DNA of 64,000 nucleotides from positions 27,635 through 91,634 of the forward strand of contig CANJQU010000001.1 in assembly GCA_947476485.1 (NCBI GenBank), in the 5' to 3' direction. Positions 7,661 to 16,569 of this stretch are shown piece after piece. Every line of letters starts with the position of its first letter. Position 1 is the stretch's first letter. The notes beneath the pieces were generated by a model. It saw nothing but the letters and a program-made list of their open reading frames with translations. It was not told the origin of the DNA and searched no databases. The DNA comes from Chitinophagaceae bacterium. Its GTDB lineage: Bacteria > Bacteroidota > Bacteroidia > Chitinophagales > Chitinophagaceae. Position numbers and translations under genes: made by a program.

Positions 7661-7703
7661 GCTAAAATCTCAGCTAAGGATTTAGATTTCAAGGTGGAAC
7701 ATT

Positions 7704-7769
7704 AGATACCTTCGGCATCGTGTTTCCGTTGTTGTGTTTTGCTATAGATATGTGATCCCCTTGGGATCA
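7704..7769 (+). repeat. Two-unit REP-like element (satellite of the 11.7-kb array)
   Basis: AGATACCTTCGGCATCG, then a 32-nt linker ending TTTTGCTATAGATATG, then TGATCCCCTTGGGATCA; 49-bp spacing as in the main array. Confidence 0.75.
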
Positions 7770-7793: not shown

Positions 7794-8468
7794 CTACCCC
7801 TGATCTTCTTTTTTGATCCTTTTTAATACAATATCGAACTTGAAATTTTGATGTGAAATGTTGATGCTGTCCGGCACACCATCTTTATAGTTGAGCATCT
7901 GCACTTCCACAACCGGTTTGGTTTTGGATGATTTTTCGATCCGGATAAGCTTTGAGCAGCCATCGGTGATGTAGTAGTCGTTTCCTTTTTTGTTGGGGAT
8001 AGCGGTATAATTGTATATGGAATCCTTTAGTAACACTGCGTTTGAAAGGTCCTGGTGTAGTATTACCAACTCCAGATCTTTGTGGAGGGCTTTAACGATA
8101 ACCTTTTTATCAAGTTTAGCCATTACATAATGCTTAATGAACCGGTTGTCTTTGGTAAAGGCGAAATCGAAAAATTTCACACCCATTTCATTTGTGAAAA
8201 CCACGCGGGTGCTGCTGTCGGGCATAGCTTTGAAAAAGAGTATGCCGCTGAAATGGTGTGTGGTAACGTCTACGCCGGCGCTATAGAGCGAATTGGAAAA
8301 TTTCGGGGTGAATTTCCTGATGCAGTTAACATCGCCGGTGGCTGGCTTAAGATGATTGTACTGAGATCTTCGGGCGTGTGCGGGTGAACACAAAAAAGTT
8401 AATGCCGCTATTGAAAGCAGAATGGCGGTAGGTTTACTGTCTTTATTAGTCAACAGAGAAAACCGCAT
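7794..8468 (-). CDS. Hypothetical secreted protein upstream-adjacent to lolA in the pigment locus
   Basis: Open 224-aa frame with signal peptide; overlaps the 3' end of the LolA gene in the same orientation. Confidence 0.65.
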   Translation of the reverse strand: MRFSLLTNKDSKPTAILLSIAALTFLCSPAHARRSQYNHLKPATGDVNCIRKFTPKFSNSLYSAGVDVTTHHFSGILFFKAMPDSSTRVVFTNEMGVKFFDFAFTKDNRFIKHYVMAKLDKKVIVKALHKDLELVILHQDLSNAVLLKDSIYNYTAIPNKKGNDYYITDGCSKLIRIEKSSKTKPVVEVQMLNYKDGVPDSINISHQNFKFDIVLKRIKKEDQG

Positions 8469-9084
8469 CGGCGATGGTTGAGTTTAGTTGTTTGTGCAGG
8501 AAAGTGATCACTGTATTATCGCCTGACTGTTCCATCATTTCAAGTCCTGTGGCCGAATAATCTTTTTTGTCTACGATAACATCGATGGTTTTGAAAATGC
8601 CCTTCAGGTTCTTTGACGTTGGAGTAAGCTGCACAAGATATGATGATGGGTTTTCAAAAATGGCTGTGGTAAAGTTAGTATTGGTGAGTATCGTGCCCTG
8701 TACGCAGTCTATCATCATCTTATTCACCTGGTCGAACATCTTGTTAGACTTTGATGAAACTTTGTTTTCCTTGCTGCCATCTTTCGTTTTTATGTTACTG
8801 CCATTGATCACCAGCAGGTAGTAGGTGGGCTTCTTATATTCCATGCGCACTTTGTTTTCGCGCTTGAACCAGAACTGGCCGGTAGAAACGATTTTATCCG
8901 ATAACATGCTCAGATTCTTGGTCTGTGTAAAGTCGCATTGTATGGACTGAGTAGCCTGCGATGCTTTGACGAATTGTTTGCGGAACTCATCGGCATTTGC
9001 TACAGGTTTGTAGCCGGCATGTTGGGCAGACACCTGTAATGTGTAAAGGCAGCAGATAAGCAGAATGAGTTTATGCATATGCAC
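8446..9084 (-). CDS. LolA-like outer membrane lipoprotein carrier protein
   Basis: Signal peptide; ATQSIQCDFTQTKNLSMLSDKIVSTGQFWFKRENKVRMEYKKPTYYLLVINGSNI. Confidence 0.8.
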   Translation of the reverse strand: MHMHKLILLICCLYTLQVSAQHAGYKPVANADEFRKQFVKASQATQSIQCDFTQTKNLSMLSDKIVSTGQFWFKRENKVRMEYKKPTYYLLVINGSNIKTKDGSKENKVSSKSNKMFDQVNKMMIDCVQGTILTNTNFTTAIFENPSSYLVQLTPTSKNLKGIFKTIDVIVDKKDYSATGLEMMEQSGDNTVITFLHKQLNSTIADAVFSVD

Positions 9085-9832
9085 TAATATTAAGCATTTT
9101 ATCGAGCCGGGTTATTGTGTAGCCGTTGCTTTCGATCTCTTTTATTAGTTCTGGTAGGATAGCCGCAGTTATCTCCATAGAATCATGCAGCAAGATAATA
9201 CTGCCTGGCTTCAGTTGACCAATAATACGTGATGTTAACTTTTGTTTGTCTTTTATGCGGGTGTCGAATGACCGTATGTTCCAGCCAATGGAAGTATAGC
9301 CGCCTTTCTTTATTGCCTGCGCAAGGCTAGGGTTCATAACGCCATATGGGGGGCGGAAAAGTAATGGTCTCAGGCCTACAGCTTTTTCCACTTCGCGATC
9401 CATTTGCCGCATATCTGCCAGCATTTTTCCGGCGCCAGACATGTCGAACCAATAACCGTGGGAATAACTGTGATTACCAATGACATGCCCTTCGTTTTTT
9501 AAACGGTTCATTATAAGCGGGTTGCCGGGGATGTTTTTCCCAATGCAAAAGAAAGATGCCTGTACATTATGCTTTTGTAATGTATCCAGTATGTTTTCCG
9601 TGTATCGTGCGGGGCCATCATCAAAAGTGAGGGCAACCAGTTTTTTGCTCGTTATCGCTTTGCATTTGGAAGGAATGAAAAAATTCAACGAAAGAGTGAT
9701 GCACGCAAGAAATAACACAGAAAGAAAGAAGAGTGTAACTAAAACAACACAATACCAGGGCATTAGCGGCGCACATATGCCCGCTATCACAAGACCAGCG
9801 ATATAAAGAGTTTTTAATTTCAACTTGCCCAA
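9071..9832 (-). CDS. Polysaccharide deacetylase family protein (NodB homology)
   Basis: VALTFDDGPARYTENILDTLQKHNVQASFFCIGKN, GNHSYSHGYW, RPPYGVMNPSLAQA, ILLHDS. Confidence 0.93.
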   Translation of the reverse strand: MGKLKLKTLYIAGLVIAGICAPLMPWYCVVLVTLFFLSVLFLACITLSLNFFIPSKCKAITSKKLVALTFDDGPARYTENILDTLQKHNVQASFFCIGKNIPGNPLIMNRLKNEGHVIGNHSYSHGYWFDMSGAGKMLADMRQMDREVEKAVGLRPLLFRPPYGVMNPSLAQAIKKGGYTSIGWNIRSFDTRIKDKQKLTSRIIGQLKPGSIILLHDSMEITAAILPELIKEIESNGYTITRLDKMLNISAYA

Positions 9833-10695
9833 AAGTTATAATAATTAAACCACTGTTCGGGGTATTGTTTTACTTTTTGTTCCAGTTCTGCGATATAATC
9901 GTTCAACGCATCGGGTATGGCAACCTGTTTATTGGCGGTATAGGTTTTTGGCGTAGTTGCTGAAAGGTGATAATGTTTTGCGTTCTCTTTAGCGCAGAAT
10001 ACGTAAGACACAGGTACTTTGAAAGTGGTTGCCAGCACAAACGGCCCCATGGGAAACAGGGCATTTTCGCCAAGGAACATACCGCTTACCGTCTTACTTC
10101 CGGCAATGAACCGATCGGCATGGATGGCTATGAGCTCATTATTCTTTAGCGCATTGCTGATCTCATAGACATGGGAGAGGTCGTCCTTAATAGTGATGAT
10201 ACTCATTTTGCGGTCGTTCATCACTGATTCGAGATACTCCTTAATCTGCTGTTGTTCATTGTCCACCATCACAATGTTTACTTTTACAGGAAGGCGCTTA
10301 AAATAATAACCCGCCAATTCATAGTTGCCTATATGTGCACTGATAAGAATGCCACCTTTGCCACCAGCCATGATCTCCTCGATATAATGCTCTCCTTCAA
10401 ACTCAAATGTGAATGGTACTTTGAGACCAGACATTACAACGATCTTATCTATCAGCGTTTGTCCAAACAGGTAATAGTTGCGATAAACGCTGCGGCTCAA
10501 TGACCAGCTCTTGCGCCCAAGTTTCCTGAAGTAATTGCGGATGTGCTTATTGGATGGTGAAAACAGGAAATAGTAAAACGCAACAAAGCGAAGCAGAAAA
10601 TAGGCGGGGCCAACTCCTGCAAAACGTAAAATGCCAATAAATATGCTGTAGCCTAGTTTATTTCCTTTAGATTTTCCTTCCCAGGACTGCGTCAT
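9820..10695 (-). CDS. LpxL/HtrB-like acyltransferase
   Basis: Single TM; GGILISAHIGNYELAGYYFKRLPVKVNIVM matches the lipid A late-acyltransferase motif. Confidence 0.82.
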   Translation of the reverse strand: MTQSWEGKSKGNKLGYSIFIGILRFAGVGPAYFLLRFVAFYYFLFSPSNKHIRNYFRKLGRKSWSLSRSVYRNYYLFGQTLIDKIVVMSGLKVPFTFEFEGEHYIEEIMAGGKGGILISAHIGNYELAGYYFKRLPVKVNIVMVDNEQQQIKEYLESVMNDRKMSIITIKDDLSHVYEISNALKNNELIAIHADRFIAGSKTVSGMFLGENALFPMGPFVLATTFKVPVSYVFCAKENAKHYHLSATTPKTYTANKQVAIPDALNDYIAELEQKVKQYPEQWFNYYNFWAS

Positions 10696-10946
10696 ATCAG
10701 TTCCTTCACCTTTGTGTGCGCGTCAATGTAATTGTAGAAATCCTGGAAGGTAGCGATACCGTTAAAATCTTCGGGTTTCACTTTACAGCCGAAATTAGCT
10801 TCTGTGATAGCTATGAGGTCAATATAATCCAGGCTGTCGAGATCCAATACCTCTTTCAGCGTTGCGTCCGGTGCAATAGATGAAGCATCTACCTCAAACT
10901 CTTCTACTAATAAATTATTGATTTTCTGTATAATACCACTGTCCAT
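10692..10946 (-). CDS. Acyl carrier protein
   Basis: 84 aa; LDLDSLDYIDLIAITE with phosphopantetheine-attachment DSLD. Confidence 0.9.
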   Translation of the reverse strand: MDSGIIQKINNLLVEEFEVDASSIAPDATLKEVLDLDSLDYIDLIAITEANFGCKVKPEDFNGIATFQDFYNYIDAHTKVKELI

Positions 10947-11071
10947 AGCGCAAATATAAAATATTTATTTTGAACTAAGAAAGGCGTTATAACAAATTGC
11001 AAAAGGTTGGATCAAAATCAGTTTGTATTTATGTTGTGCCATATACGGCTGTTGAAGTGTCGAATTGAGTA

Positions 11072-11160
11072 CAATCCCAAAGGGATTGCATGTCTATAGA
11101 AAACAATAAGGTCGGTAATTGGGCGATGCCGAAGGTATCGAATGTTATGATGCTGAATTA
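11072..11160 (-). repeat. REP-like pair flanking the RAYT (left copy)
   Basis: CAATCCCAAAGGGATTG at 11072-11088, CTATAGA block, CGATGCCGAAGGTATCG at 11124-11140; 11123-11160 is identical to 12004-12041. Confidence 0.8.
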
Positions 11161-11164
11161 TTGC

Positions 11165-11626
11165 TTATTCTATCCATTCAAACAAATACTTTTCCTCATA
11201 AGGAATATTGAATGCTTTTAGAAAGCCAATATACTCTTCTTTGAAAGTTTTGTTTTTATGATGTTCTTTTTGGTTCATTATATAGTCTATCACATTGCTG
11301 AATTGCGAATGGCTATACGAAAATGCACCATATCCCTCTTGCCAATTGAATTTATGCTTCAAAAATTGTTGGTTTTTTATGAACTCGTTTGATGATTTTT
11401 TGATCTCGCGTACGAGGTCTGACAGGCAACAGTATGGTTTCATTCCGATCAGAAAATGAATATGGTCTGGCATACCATTTATTGCAAGCATTTTTTGTTC
11501 TTTTTTCTGAACAATACCTGTAATGTACTTGTACAACTCTTCCTCCCATTCGGGTCTGATAAGGTTATTTCTTCCTTGTACGGCAAATACGATCTGAATA
11601 TAAATTTGTGAAAATGTTCCTGGCAT
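11165..11626 (-). CDS. REP-associated tyrosine transposase (RAYT) / Y1-type transposase domain protein
   Basis: FSQIYIQIVFAVQGRNNLI, HUH motif MPDHIHFLIG, YIMNQKEHHKNKTFKEEY. The track ORF begins at 11689, but Met at 11626 (MPGTFSQIYIQIVF) is the more likely start. Confidence 0.88.
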   Translation of the reverse strand: MPGTFSQIYIQIVFAVQGRNNLIRPEWEEELYKYITGIVQKKEQKMLAINGMPDHIHFLIGMKPYCCLSDLVREIKKSSNEFIKNQQFLKHKFNWQEGYGAFSYSHSQFSNVIDYIMNQKEHHKNKTFKEEYIGFLKAFNIPYEEKYLFEWIE

Positions 11627-11675
11627 AGTTCGGATATTGTTCAGCATAAAGGTAATAATGGGCTGCATAACATGC

Positions 11676-11933
11676 GATGCCTTCGGCATCGTTGTGTGTT
11701 CCGTCGTTCATACTATAGACGTGCGATGCCCTCGGCATCGGGGCACGCAGCGTAACTTTTGCTATAGATATTCGATGCTGTCGGCATCGTTAGATGGTGT
11801 ATGTATTTTGCTATAGACATTGGATGCCTTCGGCATCGGGTACGTGGTGTAGCTCATGCTATAGATATACGAGCCCCCGGCATAGGTACCGGGTATATGT
11901 TTATTGCAATCGACTTTGGATACCGTTGGTATA
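11676..11933 (+). repeat. REP-like array, about 6 units of 47-49 bp
   Basis: Palindromes at 11676, 11725, 11774, 11823 (exactly 49 bp apart), then decayed units near 11871 and 11919; core CGATGCCnTCGGCATCG; linkers end in CTATAGAYR. Confidence 0.88.
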
Positions 11934-11954
11934 TTCCATTATGGGAAATGAGTT

Positions 11955-12041
11955 CAATCCCAAAGGGATTGTATGTCTATAGAAAATAAAACAACTGATG
12001 TATGCGATGCCGAAGGTATCGAATGTTATGATGCTGAATTA
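11955..12041 (-). repeat. REP-like pair flanking the RAYT (right copy)
   Basis: CAATCCCAAAGGGATTG at 11955-11971 and CGATGCCGAAGGTATCG at 12005-12021; direct repeat of 11072-11160. Confidence 0.8.
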
Positions 12042-12047
12042 AACCGA

Positions 12048-13271
12048 TTACCCCTTCCATTTTCGAACGATCAGCGAGGAATTCGTTCCCCCGAAACCAA
12101 ATGAATTGGAGAGAAATACATCAAACTCATGGTCGAGCGCATTGGTAACAATATTCAGTGGCGCGGAATCTTCGTCCGGATTTTCGAAATTGATATTAGG
12201 AGCGATGAAGTTGTTCTCCATCATCAGCATCGAATAGACAATTTCGCTGGAGCCTGCCATCCAGCATTCGTGACCAGTCATGGATTTAGTGGAGCTAATA
12301 AACGGCCTCGAAGCGCCAAACAGTGAATTGATTGCCCGGGCCTCACTGGAATCGCCTGCCTTTGTAGACGTGGCATGTGCATTGATATAACCTACGTCCG
12401 CGGGTTGAATACGAGCATCAATAAGGGCTTTCTCAAGTGATTTCAACGGCCCTTCAACTGTTGGGTTTGAGATATGAGAGCCATTGGATGAGAAGCCGTA
12501 CCCGATCACTTCACCCAGTATTTTAGCGCCCCTTTTTTGCGCAGATTCCAGACTTTCGAGAATAACTGTGGCTGCGCCGCCGCTTGGTACCAGCCCGTCG
12601 CGATCCCTGTCGAAGGGGCGTGAAGCCTTTGTCGGGTCGCTTTCCCGTGTTGAAAAAGCAGCTATGCTGTCGAAGTAGGACATAGAATAGAGATTTACTT
12701 CCTGTGCGCCACCACAGATCACGCAATCCTGCATGCCGTTTTTGATAAACATATAGCCAAGGCCTATCGCGTGAGAACCACTGGCACAGGCGGCACTTAC
12801 GGTGAAGTTGATGCCCCGTATCTTAAAAATTGTGGCCAGGTTCATATTCACAGTAGAGTTCATGGTCTGAAATACATAGCCGGAGCCAAGCATCATTGTG
12901 TCCTTTTTCTCTCGAACTATGTCTACGCCCTCAATAACCGGTTTAGCTGAGCTATCATTACCAAAGAGCAGTCCGATCTCGTGCTGCTCGAGGTAATCAG
13001 CGTCTATACCGGCCATTTGTAATGCCTCCTGGGTAGATACATAGGCGAATTCAGCTTGTTCCGGCATCATGAGGCGTGCGCGGCGGTCAAGTACGCCCTT
13101 CAAATTCGGACGGTTTACAAAGCCGGTCAGTGCAGAAGCATAACCAAACTCTTTTCTTTCCGGTGAGAAAATAATACCGGATTTTCCTGCGCGTAAAGAT
13201 TGTTTTACTTCGTCAAGATTTGCGCCGATGCATGAATATATACCCAGGCCTGTTATTACTACTCTGTTCAT
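12048..13271 (-). CDS. Beta-ketoacyl-ACP synthase (FabF/KS-alpha type), pigment locus
   Basis: Active site VSAACASGSHAIGLGY, NAHATSTKAGDSSEARAI, STKSMTGHECWMAGSSE, SNSFGFGGTNSSLI. Confidence 0.92.
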   Translation of the reverse strand: MNRVVITGLGIYSCIGANLDEVKQSLRAGKSGIIFSPERKEFGYASALTGFVNRPNLKGVLDRRARLMMPEQAEFAYVSTQEALQMAGIDADYLEQHEIGLLFGNDSSAKPVIEGVDIVREKKDTMMLGSGYVFQTMNSTVNMNLATIFKIRGINFTVSAACASGSHAIGLGYMFIKNGMQDCVICGGAQEVNLYSMSYFDSIAAFSTRESDPTKASRPFDRDRDGLVPSGGAATVILESLESAQKRGAKILGEVIGYGFSSNGSHISNPTVEGPLKSLEKALIDARIQPADVGYINAHATSTKAGDSSEARAINSLFGASRPFISSTKSMTGHECWMAGSSEIVYSMLMMENNFIAPNINFENPDEDSAPLNIVTNALDHEFDVFLSNSFGFGGTNSSLIVRKWKG

Positions 13272-13420
13272 TCTTAGGTTTATCGTTATCTTTTTTTAAA
13301 AGTAAGGTTCTTTATTAAAAGGTCAAAATTAGTGAGTATTTGGCAGCACCCAACAGTGAACTCTAATTTTATGGGATGGAGAACTAAGATGATAATTCAT
13401 GTTTAATTGTTAGTTTTGGC

Positions 13421-13807
13421 TTGATTATGATCAACGTCAGAAAGCAAATTCTATATTGGGAAACCGGTGCAGATGAAGAAATGCTGAATGCTAAGATCAT
13501 GATCGAAAATCACCGTTTTCTCGCTGGCTTGTTTTTTTGCCACCTATGTCTTGAAAAAATATTAAAGGCCCACGTGGTAAAAGTGACCGAGGAGCATCCG
13601 CCAAGGACTCATATTTTGGCATCGCTTGCAGATATCGGTCGGATCAAATTTGATGAGCTGCAGGAACAAATAATATATGAGATACAGACCTATCAATTAG
13701 AAGGAAGATACCCCGAAAACTATCCATCAGAACCAGACCCGATCACAGCACAGGAATATTTCGAACAAACAATAATTTTGCACAAATGGCTCAAGGCGAT
13801 GTTATAA
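13421..13807 (+). CDS. HEPN domain-containing protein (module 1)
   Basis: LYWETGADEEMLNAKIMIENHRFLAGLFFCHLCLEKILKAHVV; overlaps an MNT gene. Confidence 0.82.
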   Translation: MIMINVRKQILYWETGADEEMLNAKIMIENHRFLAGLFFCHLCLEKILKAHVVKVTEEHPPRTHILASLADIGRIKFDELQEQIIYEIQTYQLEGRYPENYPSEPDPITAQEYFEQTIILHKWLKAML

Positions 13808-14106
13808 GGCTTTTGCAATTATATGTCCGGTTGCTCAATGAGGCAGGGTTAAAGATACAGAAGGCATTTTTGTATGGCAGTTTTGCACGAAATGATGCGA
13901 AGGCTGACAGCGATATAGATGTGATGCTCGTGTCTGATAATTTTGACAGCAATGATGTAAAAATAAAAGCAAAAGCATGGCAACTTACCCGCAAAGTTGA
14001 CCTGCGGATCGAGCCGTTTACGATAGGAACAAAGAGATTTTTTTCTGATGATGATTCTGCGCTTGTCGACCAAGTAAAAAAAGAAGGGATCGAAATTGCT
14101 TTTTAA
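13786..14106 (+). CDS. Nucleotidyltransferase domain protein (MNT, module 1)
   Basis: YGSFARNDAKADSDIDVMLV = GSx10DxD nucleotidyltransferase motif; overlaps HEPN by 22 nt. Confidence 0.87.
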   Translation: MAQGDVIRLLQLYVRLLNEAGLKIQKAFLYGSFARNDAKADSDIDVMLVSDNFDSNDVKIKAKAWQLTRKVDLRIEPFTIGTKRFFSDDDSALVDQVKKEGIEIAF

Positions 14107-14244
14107 CAACTGGAAAAGATAGGTTAAGTATATAGGCCAAATAGCGTTGTGACTCTGATATTCATAAATGATGACCATAGCCCCAGATATAATTATTACT
14201 TTTACGCACTGATAATTGATATTAATAAATAAAATAAAGCTTGC

Positions 14245-15798
14245 ATGATATATATCGGGGGAAAAAATCTCTCTTTAAATGATTTTTCAGAAATAGTTTA
14301 TAAGAAAAAGGAGATCGGGTTAGATGAGGCGGCTGTGAATAAAGTTGGCGTTAATTATAAATTCCTGCAACAATTTTCCACTAACAAACTGATCTATGGC
14401 ATAAATACCGGCTTCGGCCCCATGGCGCAGTACAAGGTTAGTGAAGAGAATTTGCTCCAATTGCAATACAATCTTATCAGGAGCCATTCATCGGGCGGTG
14501 GTAAGCTGTTGCCTCAGCACCTGGTAAAGGCGCTGATGATCGCGAGACTGAACAGTCTGATGCAGGGTTATTCGGGCGTGCATAACGAGGCTGTTGAATT
14601 GTTGCGGGAGCTGATCAATAAAGATGTTACTCCCTGCATTTATGAACATGGTGGCGTGGGAGCCAGCGGGGACCTGGTGCAACTTGCTCACCTGGCTTTG
14701 GTGTTGATAGGTGAAGGCGAAGTGATCCATGATAGCAGGGTATGCACTACGGCAGAGGTATTTGCCACGCTGGGTATAAAACCATTATCCATCCACATAC
14801 GGGAAGGGCTGGCGATACTTAATGGTACGTCTGCGATGACAGGTGTGGGCATGGTTAATATTATCCAGGCGCAAAAGCTACTGGGCTGGTCGGTGTTGTT
14901 ATCGGCTATGACCAATGAAGTCGTGGCGGCTTATGACGACCACTTTTCTTATGAATTGAATATTGTAAAGCAACATAAGGGACAGAATAAGATCGCGGCC
15001 ACGCTCAGGAATATTCTTAGTGGCAGCAAGATGATCCGTAGCCGTTCGGAGCATTTATATAATCCCGAACAGCTCGACCAGGAGGTCTTTGAGGACAAGG
15101 TGCAGGAGTATTATTCACTTCGATGCGTGACGCAGATACTGGGACCCATATACGACACTGTCTGCCAGGCTGAAAATGTGCTGGTAAACGAGCTGAACTC
15201 GGTGAATGATAACCCGATCATAGACCACGAAAACAAGAATATCTTTCACGGCGGCAATTTCCATGGTGACTATGTGTCGCTGGAAATGGATAAGCTGAAG
15301 ATAGCGATAACAAAATTGTCGATGCTGTCTGAACGGCAGTTAAACTACCTGCTAAACGACAAGCTGAATGGGAAGTTTCCACCTTTTGTAAACCTCGGAG
15401 TGCTGGGTTTCAATTTTGGAATGCAAGGGATGCAGTTTACCGCTACGTCCACAGTTGCGGAAAACCAGACGTTGTCTTTCCCTATGTATGTGCACAGCAT
15501 ACCTAATAACAATGACAACCAGGATATAGTGAGCATGGGCTGCAATGCGGCGTTGATGACCAAGCGGGTTATTGATAATTCGTTCGAGGTGCTGGCGATA
15601 CAGATGATGACGGTGCTTCAGGCAATAGATCATTTAGGTTGTGCAGCAGAGCTCTCACCAAAGACAAAATTCTTTTATGACGAGTTGAGGGCGATATTTC
15701 CAAAGTTTGTAGAAGACGTACCGAAGTACAAAGACCTGGAGCGGGTAAAAGAGTATTTTGAAAAATCTGATCCCGTAATATCGTTCGAGGAAGCATAA
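14245..15798 (+). CDS. HAL/PAL/TAL family aromatic amino acid ammonia-lyase
   Basis: MIO motif GVGASGDLVQLAHLALVLIGEGE; INTGFGPMAQYKV; NDNPIIDHENKNIFHGGNFHGDYVSLEMDKL. Confidence 0.92.
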   Translation: MIYIGGKNLSLNDFSEIVYKKKEIGLDEAAVNKVGVNYKFLQQFSTNKLIYGINTGFGPMAQYKVSEENLLQLQYNLIRSHSSGGGKLLPQHLVKALMIARLNSLMQGYSGVHNEAVELLRELINKDVTPCIYEHGGVGASGDLVQLAHLALVLIGEGEVIHDSRVCTTAEVFATLGIKPLSIHIREGLAILNGTSAMTGVGMVNIIQAQKLLGWSVLLSAMTNEVVAAYDDHFSYELNIVKQHKGQNKIAATLRNILSGSKMIRSRSEHLYNPEQLDQEVFEDKVQEYYSLRCVTQILGPIYDTVCQAENVLVNELNSVNDNPIIDHENKNIFHGGNFHGDYVSLEMDKLKIAITKLSMLSERQLNYLLNDKLNGKFPPFVNLGVLGFNFGMQGMQFTATSTVAENQTLSFPMYVHSIPNNNDNQDIVSMGCNAALMTKRVIDNSFEVLAIQMMTVLQAIDHLGCAAELSPKTKFFYDELRAIFPKFVEDVPKYKDLERVKEYFEKSDPVISFEEA

Positions 15799-15840
15799 TT
15801 ATCCATTGTCCCGATAAGGATAGTGTTAAAACAGGAAACT

Positions 15841-16569
15841 ATGAAATGTGCGTTAGTAACCGGTGGGTCAAGGGGAATTGGCAAGGCCATCTGTATAAAA
15901 ATGGCAGCCATGGGCTACTATGTGCTGGTGAATTATAAAAGCAATGAAGGCGAGGCGAACGACACCCTTTCGCGCGTCAGGGAAAATGGCGGAGATGGTG
16001 AACTGCTGCAGTTTGATGTTTCAGGTAAAGAGGAGATACAGGCGGCGCTGAGCAAGTGGATAACGGGCAACCCTGAAAAATATATTGAAGTGCTGGTGAA
16101 CAATGCGGGCATTAAGGATGACGGACTGATGCTGTGGATGAAAGATGAGCAGTGGGATAATGTGATCAAGACCAGCCTGGATGGGTTCTTCTATGTGACG
16201 CGGACGGTATTGAACAGTATGCTGCTGAAAAAGTATGGCCGTATTGTAAATGTTGTTTCTCTTTCCGGCTTAAAGGGACTTCCCGGGCAGACGAATTATT
16301 CAGCTGCTAAAGCGGGAGTGATAGGAGCAACCAAAGCGCTGGCGCAGGAAGTAGGCAGGAAGGGCGTTACCGTGAATGCGGTAGCTCCGGGCTTTATTAA
16401 AACGGATATGACCAGCGGACTTGATGAAAAGGAAATGGCAGTGCTTGTGCCGGTAAGGCGATTTGGTACGGCTGACGAAGTCGCGCACGCTGTTGGGTTC
16501 CTGGCATCGCCGGAGGCAAGCTATATCACAGGGCAGGTGTTGTCGGTGAATGGCGGGCTGTATTCGTAG
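15841..16569 (+). CDS. SDR family 3-oxoacyl-ACP reductase (FabG-like)
   Basis: ALVTGGSRGIGKAI, NNAGI, YSAAKAGVIGATKALAQEV, APGFIKTDM. Confidence 0.92.
   Translation: MKCALVTGGSRGIGKAICIKMAAMGYYVLVNYKSNEGEANDTLSRVRENGGDGELLQFDVSGKEEIQAALSKWITGNPEKYIEVLVNNAGIKDDGLMLWMKDEQWDNVIKTSLDGFFYVTRTVLNSMLLKKYGRIVNVVSLSGLKGLPGQTNYSAAKAGVIGATKALAQEVGRKGVTVNAVAPGFIKTDMTSGLDEKEMAVLVPVRRFGTADEVAHAVGFLASPEASYITGQVLSVNGGLYS

Follow-up and report, generated by a model that had tools for sequence, protein, structure and literature searches.

The window (the whole 64,000-nucleotide stretch of DNA analysed, from a Chitinophagaceae bacterium) carries a small cassette composed of a minus-strand transposase gene, an array of hairpins upstream of it that is read on the plus strand, and two flanking hairpin composites. 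The cassette lies between the acyl carrier protein and ketosynthase genes of a region (7794-16569) encoding an acyl carrier protein, ketosynthase, acyltransferase, aromatic amino acid lyase, and reductase, which recalls a flexirubin/aryl polyene cluster. Between the ketosynthase and ammonia-lyase genes, overlapping HEPN-domain and nucleotidyltransferase (NTP_transf_2) genes (13421-14106) look like a HEPN/MNT toxin-antitoxin pair. The features are given below, with bit scores from R1, a covariance model of the hairpin unit comprising 72 units, two of them from the window; D1 to D5 are repeat families.

7698..7769, plus: dispersed two-hairpin composite, intergenic (R1 37.4 bits; absent from the site in G020 and G033)
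11009..12055, no strand: whole cassette (lacking at the corresponding intergenic position in G004, G033, G013, and G006)
11062..11160, minus: flanking composite on the 3' side of the gene (R1 41.7 + 16.3 bits; D4/D5)
11165..11626, minus: Y1 (HUH/tyrosine) transposase gene, 153 aa, assigned to TnpA-Y1 subclass 1.2 (PF01797, NCBIfam, motif alignment)
11669..11691, plus: hairpin unit 1, tag mostly lost (R1 23.5 bits; direct repeat family D2)
11710..11740, plus: unit 2, CTATAGACGT-G-[CGATGCC CTC GGCATCG] (R1 31.0 bits)
11759..11789, plus: unit 3, CTATAGATAT-T-hairpin (R1 35.0 bits)
11808..11838, plus: unit 4, CTATAGACAT-T-hairpin (R1 42.9 bits)
11856..11886, plus: decayed unit 5, CTATAG intact but stem disrupted (sequence; repeat family D3; TRF array 11725-11921)
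11904..11934, plus: decayed unit 6, CAATCG replacing CTATAG (sequence; repeat family D1)
11945..12041, minus: flanking composite on the 5' side of the gene, with the unit at 11955-11985 and the second hairpin at 12005-12027 (R1 41.2 + 16.3 bits)

The four palindromes that the initial annotation had described as spaced exactly 49 bp apart are present, each one base to the left of where it had placed them: CGATGCC starts at 11675 and 11724, CGATGCT at 11773, and GGATGCC at 11822. The two decayed units that it had seen after them correspond to units 5 and 6, and the conserved linker end that it had noted is a tag, CTATAGAYRT, found on the plus strand immediately 5' of each good hairpin of the array with one base between. 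The unit is read on one strand as 5'-CTATARAYRT-N-[~7-bp stem, 3-nt loop], and the GT[AG]G tetranucleotide is absent from the position 5' of the hairpin where this tag stands. About three-quarters of the units have a TTC loop on the tag strand, a strand bias consistent with a unit that is read on one strand, in single-stranded form; covariation of the hairpin pairs is not usable as independent evidence because the hairpins were selected for pairing.

The two flanking composites, built of a hairpin with CTATAG and a second hairpin, lie on the strand opposite to the array on both sides of the cassette and are direct repeats of each other, 881-883 bp apart, with an identity of 91% in D4 and 100% in D5. 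The composite at 11062..11160 consists of a tagged hairpin, AATCCC-AAA-GGGATT (unit 11072-11102, minus strand), and the hairpin CGATGCCGAAGGTATCG (11124-11146). The second hairpin often has a G-T mismatch (GATGCC..GGTATC) on one strand, as in the composites of the window's own genome and at loci L300, L303, and L304, and this mismatch persists across species of the genus. Over the full 64 kb (E<=1, filters off), the R1 hits were confined to the array, both flanking composites, and the composite at 7698-7769.

The transposase starts at the ATG at 11624-11626, which is conserved in the alignment of homologues, while the 174-aa ORF as listed (to 11689) runs into the first palindrome; this overrun and the opposite-strand composites both go beyond the initial annotation. 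The protein matches PF01797 (1.9e-25) and scores 66 bits with the NCBIfam model for IS200/IS605 (NF033573, cut-off 55), which also matches 43/43 members of alignment A2 at E<=0.001; homologues are matched by both this model and the RAYT model (NF047646). Its motifs are DHIH (HUH), WQ, and YIMNQKEHH, i.e., Y---Q--HH, so the HUH motif and the YIMNQ motif with HH had been recognized correctly. H56, H58, and Y116 (A2 numbering), which represent HUH and one catalytic tyrosine, are invariant in the 43 homologues, and so is WQ, a motif also found in several class 2 subclasses. In E. coli TnpAREP, W94/Q95 lie within the guide-recognition region (PMC6006769). An AlphaFold (AF2) model of the transposase with a mean pLDDT of 88 was nearest to ISDra2 and IS608 TnpA and also matched TnpAREP 4er8, and a sequence search of solved structures returned IS200-type proteins only. 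No tnpB ORF was found adjoining the gene in the ORF list of the window.

The three motifs of TnpA-Y1 subclass 1.2, DH[IV]H, WQ, and Y---Q--HH, are all present (Quentin et al., 2018, Table 1; PMC6006769), whereas the Y[IV]ENQ motif of subclass 1.1 is absent, as are the near-identical elements in many copies that mark that subclass. Although it works in a REP-like setting, the transposase thus stands outside the classical RAYT class, and by its sequence it is assigned to subclass 1.2 rather than to the canonical RAYTs. The RAYT label of the initial annotation does not hold in the strict sense: the class 2 tyrosine motif Y---NP is absent and replaced by Y---Q--HH, the RAYT model gives 35.2 bits against a cut-off of 80, and the tag is not GTAG. 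Subclass 1.2 is generally without the typical terminal IS200 structures, and its REP entry is 'no' (Quentin et al., 2018, Table 1; PMC6006769).

The same tagged hairpins were found beside homologous genes. In 84 loci made up of the window gene and homologues, at least 66% identical bar a few and including 80 loci that encode close relatives, hairpins with the 5' tag CTATAAACATT amounted to 282 units at 77 loci. Permuted tags gave 9.8 units on average and a maximum of 180, the latter probably from a permutation that nearly restored the tag. As the tag is almost symmetric, a reversed tag served badly as the first control, and permuted and complement tags were used instead. With clades defined as groups by identity to the window protein, the strict unit rule placed a unit at 69/92 loci of at least 66% identity, 3/38 at 56-66%, 3/48 at 47-56%, and 0/42 below, i.e., near 6 of the 128 more distant homologues pooled; the complement tag under this rule gave 0/92. 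A looser unit rule found a tagged hairpin at 86 of the 92 close loci, and about half of the loci at 47-66% identity were without one by the rules used. The association is thus specific to the clade. A pairwise comparison of tag likeness with protein identity was set aside, as its control rose too, confounded by the 49-bp periodicity.

Units occur singly, in tandem arrays of 49-52 bp, or as pairs with inward-facing tags, often around a middle hairpin; in several genomes, the hairpin enclosed by such a pair is untagged. The commonest arrangements of neighbouring units at the close loci are the inward-tag pair at 90-109 bp (60 of 94 inward-tag pairs) and the tandem at 40-59 bp (39 of 73 tandem neighbours). 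The nearest upstream tagged unit faces the gene in 31/46 loci and the downstream ones are split 36/35.

The link between unit and gene extends to whole genomes. In 296 genomes of the Bacteroidota class that are at least 90% complete, most of them draft MAGs, units counted at E<=0.05 were present in 10/10 genomes with the gene at E<=1e-68, in 22/32, 17/42, and 11/58 genomes with stepwise weaker gene matches, and in 10/154 genomes with no match (Fisher odds ratio 10.5, p ~1e-13 with kinship ignored). Within the genus (n=35), the Spearman correlation of units with the gene was 0.62. The expectation of the initial annotation that unit abundance tracks the transposase clade is thus borne out in that relatives without the gene are mostly without the unit, and it fails for a few unit-rich genomes whose assemblies contain no close gene, namely G026 (68 units), G298 (16), and, similarly, G019 and G023. 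Assembly gaps or gene loss may account for exceptions such as G026. On about ten of the G026 contigs for which units are listed, a unit lies ~650 bp or less from a contig end, and in G240 the sole Y1 match is truncated by the start of its contig. In draft genomes, assemblies are likely to break, and genomes to vary, at these hairpins.

The further copies that the initial annotation's reading called for are present in the window's own genome, which has 16 units, those beyond the cassette at about eight sites. Of simple pattern matches, only those with 0-2 mismatches and hairpin context were used, as the number obtained with three mismatches did not exceed that of the control. All seven dispersed copies inspected lie between larger ORFs, two of them overlapping only 68-codon ORFs. 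In the four genomes of the same genus that lack the cassette, ~50-140 bp separate the acyl carrier protein and ketosynthase genes, where the window has its 1.05-kb cassette, and the genes that flank it in the window are on a different contig from the nearest homologue in G015 and G031. These site comparisons, like that of the 7.7-kb composite, are between species and show presence or absence rather than a single event with exact ends. Gene copies within one genome are mostly 35-86% identical, and are therefore unlike those of a spreading IS; one pair, the two Lacihabitans copies, is 100% identical. The own genome has one copy of the gene, one paralogue at 40-41% identity, and a weakly matching fragment, and this low copy number with low identity between copies agrees with the description of subclass 1.2. 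A plasmid search gave four records, none of them close. The paralogue (L002, contig 106 of G000) has different hairpins, TAACCCC-ATA-GGGGTTA, plus a 12-bp stem right after the stop codon (1411-1427, 1942-1968).

The locus is most likely a REPtron-like cassette in which a low-copy, IS200-type HUH/Y1 transposase of subclass 1.2 is accompanied by its own non-autonomous palindromic elements, so that the REPtron proposed in the initial annotation is retained as a REPtron-like arrangement with a unit of palindrome plus CTATA tag. We infer that the enzyme mobilises the units. It would bind the hairpin and 5' tag in single-stranded DNA, cut at or near the tag, and rejoin the ends, by which units would spread in trans with its own gene seldom multiplying. 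In IS608, ISDra2, and one TnpAREP, the choice of cutting site depends on a tetranucleotide 5' of the hairpin (PMC8266576), and the tag occupies the same place here; together with the clade-specificity of the tag, these guides suggest that it may serve as recognition or cleavage guide. CTA would be the cutting site and the bases after it the recognition or guide sequence. The cut made by TnpAREP falls in a C|T dinucleotide next to the REP (PMC8266576), which the CTA common to several related tags would fit.

The few, mostly divergent gene copies per genome, set against up to 68 units, make it unlikely that the locus is a conventional IS200/IS605 insertion sequence, with gene and ends moving jointly and MITE-like derivatives descended from its end hairpins. 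Such an element would suit the best NCBIfam model, the nearest solved structures, the absence of the cassette in four relatives with the nearest homologues in other neighbourhoods, and the identical Lacihabitans pair, and the window system does share with IS608 and ISDra2 (subclass 1.1) the fold, the HUH/Y catalytic set, and a hairpin beside a possible 5' guide sequence. It differs in not being multi-copy and near-identical and in having no adjoining tnpB; many-unit tandem arrays are common, and unit pairs by close genes commonly have inverted, inward-facing tags, which would not suit direct left and right ends as in IS608.

The four unit-rich genomes without a close gene are what would be seen if another transposase or a host function moved or kept the units, and the gene merely sat in repeat-rich islands. 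This is distinctly improbable, as co-occurrence drops with gene distance and the tag differs between close and distant homologues, which simple co-location does not predict. Finally, ordinary transcription terminators or structured RNAs that happen to repeat would be short, stable, and intergenic as these hairpins are, but they are hardly credible here given a tag that tracks the transposase clade, arrays of exactly 49-52 bp, inward-facing pairs, copies between genes of whatever orientation, and no Rfam match.

Compared with known systems, the REPtron-like cassette resembles the REPtrons/RAYTs of E. coli, Pseudomonas, and Stenotrophomonas (TnpAREP, class 2, with GTAG-tagged REPs) in its low-copy HUH/Y1 enzyme flanked by short 5'-tagged hairpins, intergenic dispersal, tandem arrays, inverted pairs, and strand-specific unit, whereas its enzyme has Y---Q--HH and falls below the RAYT cut-off, its tag is CTATARAYRT and not GT[AG]G, and its host belongs to Bacteroidota. 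The inward-tag pairs, dispersed and 90-109 bp apart, recall REPINs/BIMEs (inverted REP pairs), but here a third, untagged middle hairpin is often present and the tag differs. With TnpA-Y1 subclass 1.2, it shares the motifs, a length of ~150 aa, a small number of divergent copies in each genome, and occurrence in Bacteroidetes; tagged hairpins lie beside most close homologues here, in contrast to the REP entry 'no' of the survey (PMC6006769). CGTC-tagged repeats, also reported in Bacteroidetes and without a dedicated transposase, are likewise palindromic and intergenic with a tag at one end, but they have another tag and stem (PMC3733652). A literature search for the strings CTATAAACAT and ATGTTTATAG returned unrelated papers only, and no description of CTATA-tagged repeats was found in the literature searched, subscription papers being outside its scope and an earlier description thus possible.

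Should this reading be true, REP-type repeats with their enzymes would not be peculiar to class 2 (GTAG) systems. A probable mobilising enzyme could then be named for a large and largely unstudied Bacteroidota repeat set, and a probable substrate for an enzyme subclass with a negative REP entry. The range of tags across clades would also be a natural record from which to read how protein residues and DNA guides are linked.

Hairpins beside distant homologues carry other tags, including CTACCAAGGTT (L126), CTACAAACGTT (L121), GCTACAGAGCTTT (L127), and GCTACAAAGC-type (L128), and several of these homologues have other CTAY-type tags; the CTA start is common to the close clade and several others, with different bases following. 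In G037, whose gene is 51% identical to that of the window, CTACCAAGGTT plus the hairpin start gave 32 matches (<=2 mismatches), over half of which fall within the gene cassette, with the remainder on other contigs; the same pattern gave 0 to 5 matches in nine other genomes; the gene-unit pattern thus repeats in a second clade. On balance, the analysis leans slightly towards subclass 1.2 being a second, independent REP-mobilising line from IS200-type ancestors across Bacteroidota, whose hairpin tag diversified with the enzyme, in which case the tag series CTATAAACAT, CTACAAACG, CTACCAAGG, and CTACAAAGC, with GGGCGAAATA-type tags in distant clades, would represent natural enzyme/guide pairs. 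L136-L138 carry GGGCGAAATA-type tags, their hairpins mostly with 5-nt loops. These loci and L133, L140, and L142 (36-42% identity) share hairpins, mostly with such loops, that follow a GGGCGAAATA- or GGGCATCATA-type sequence and form a further tag class.
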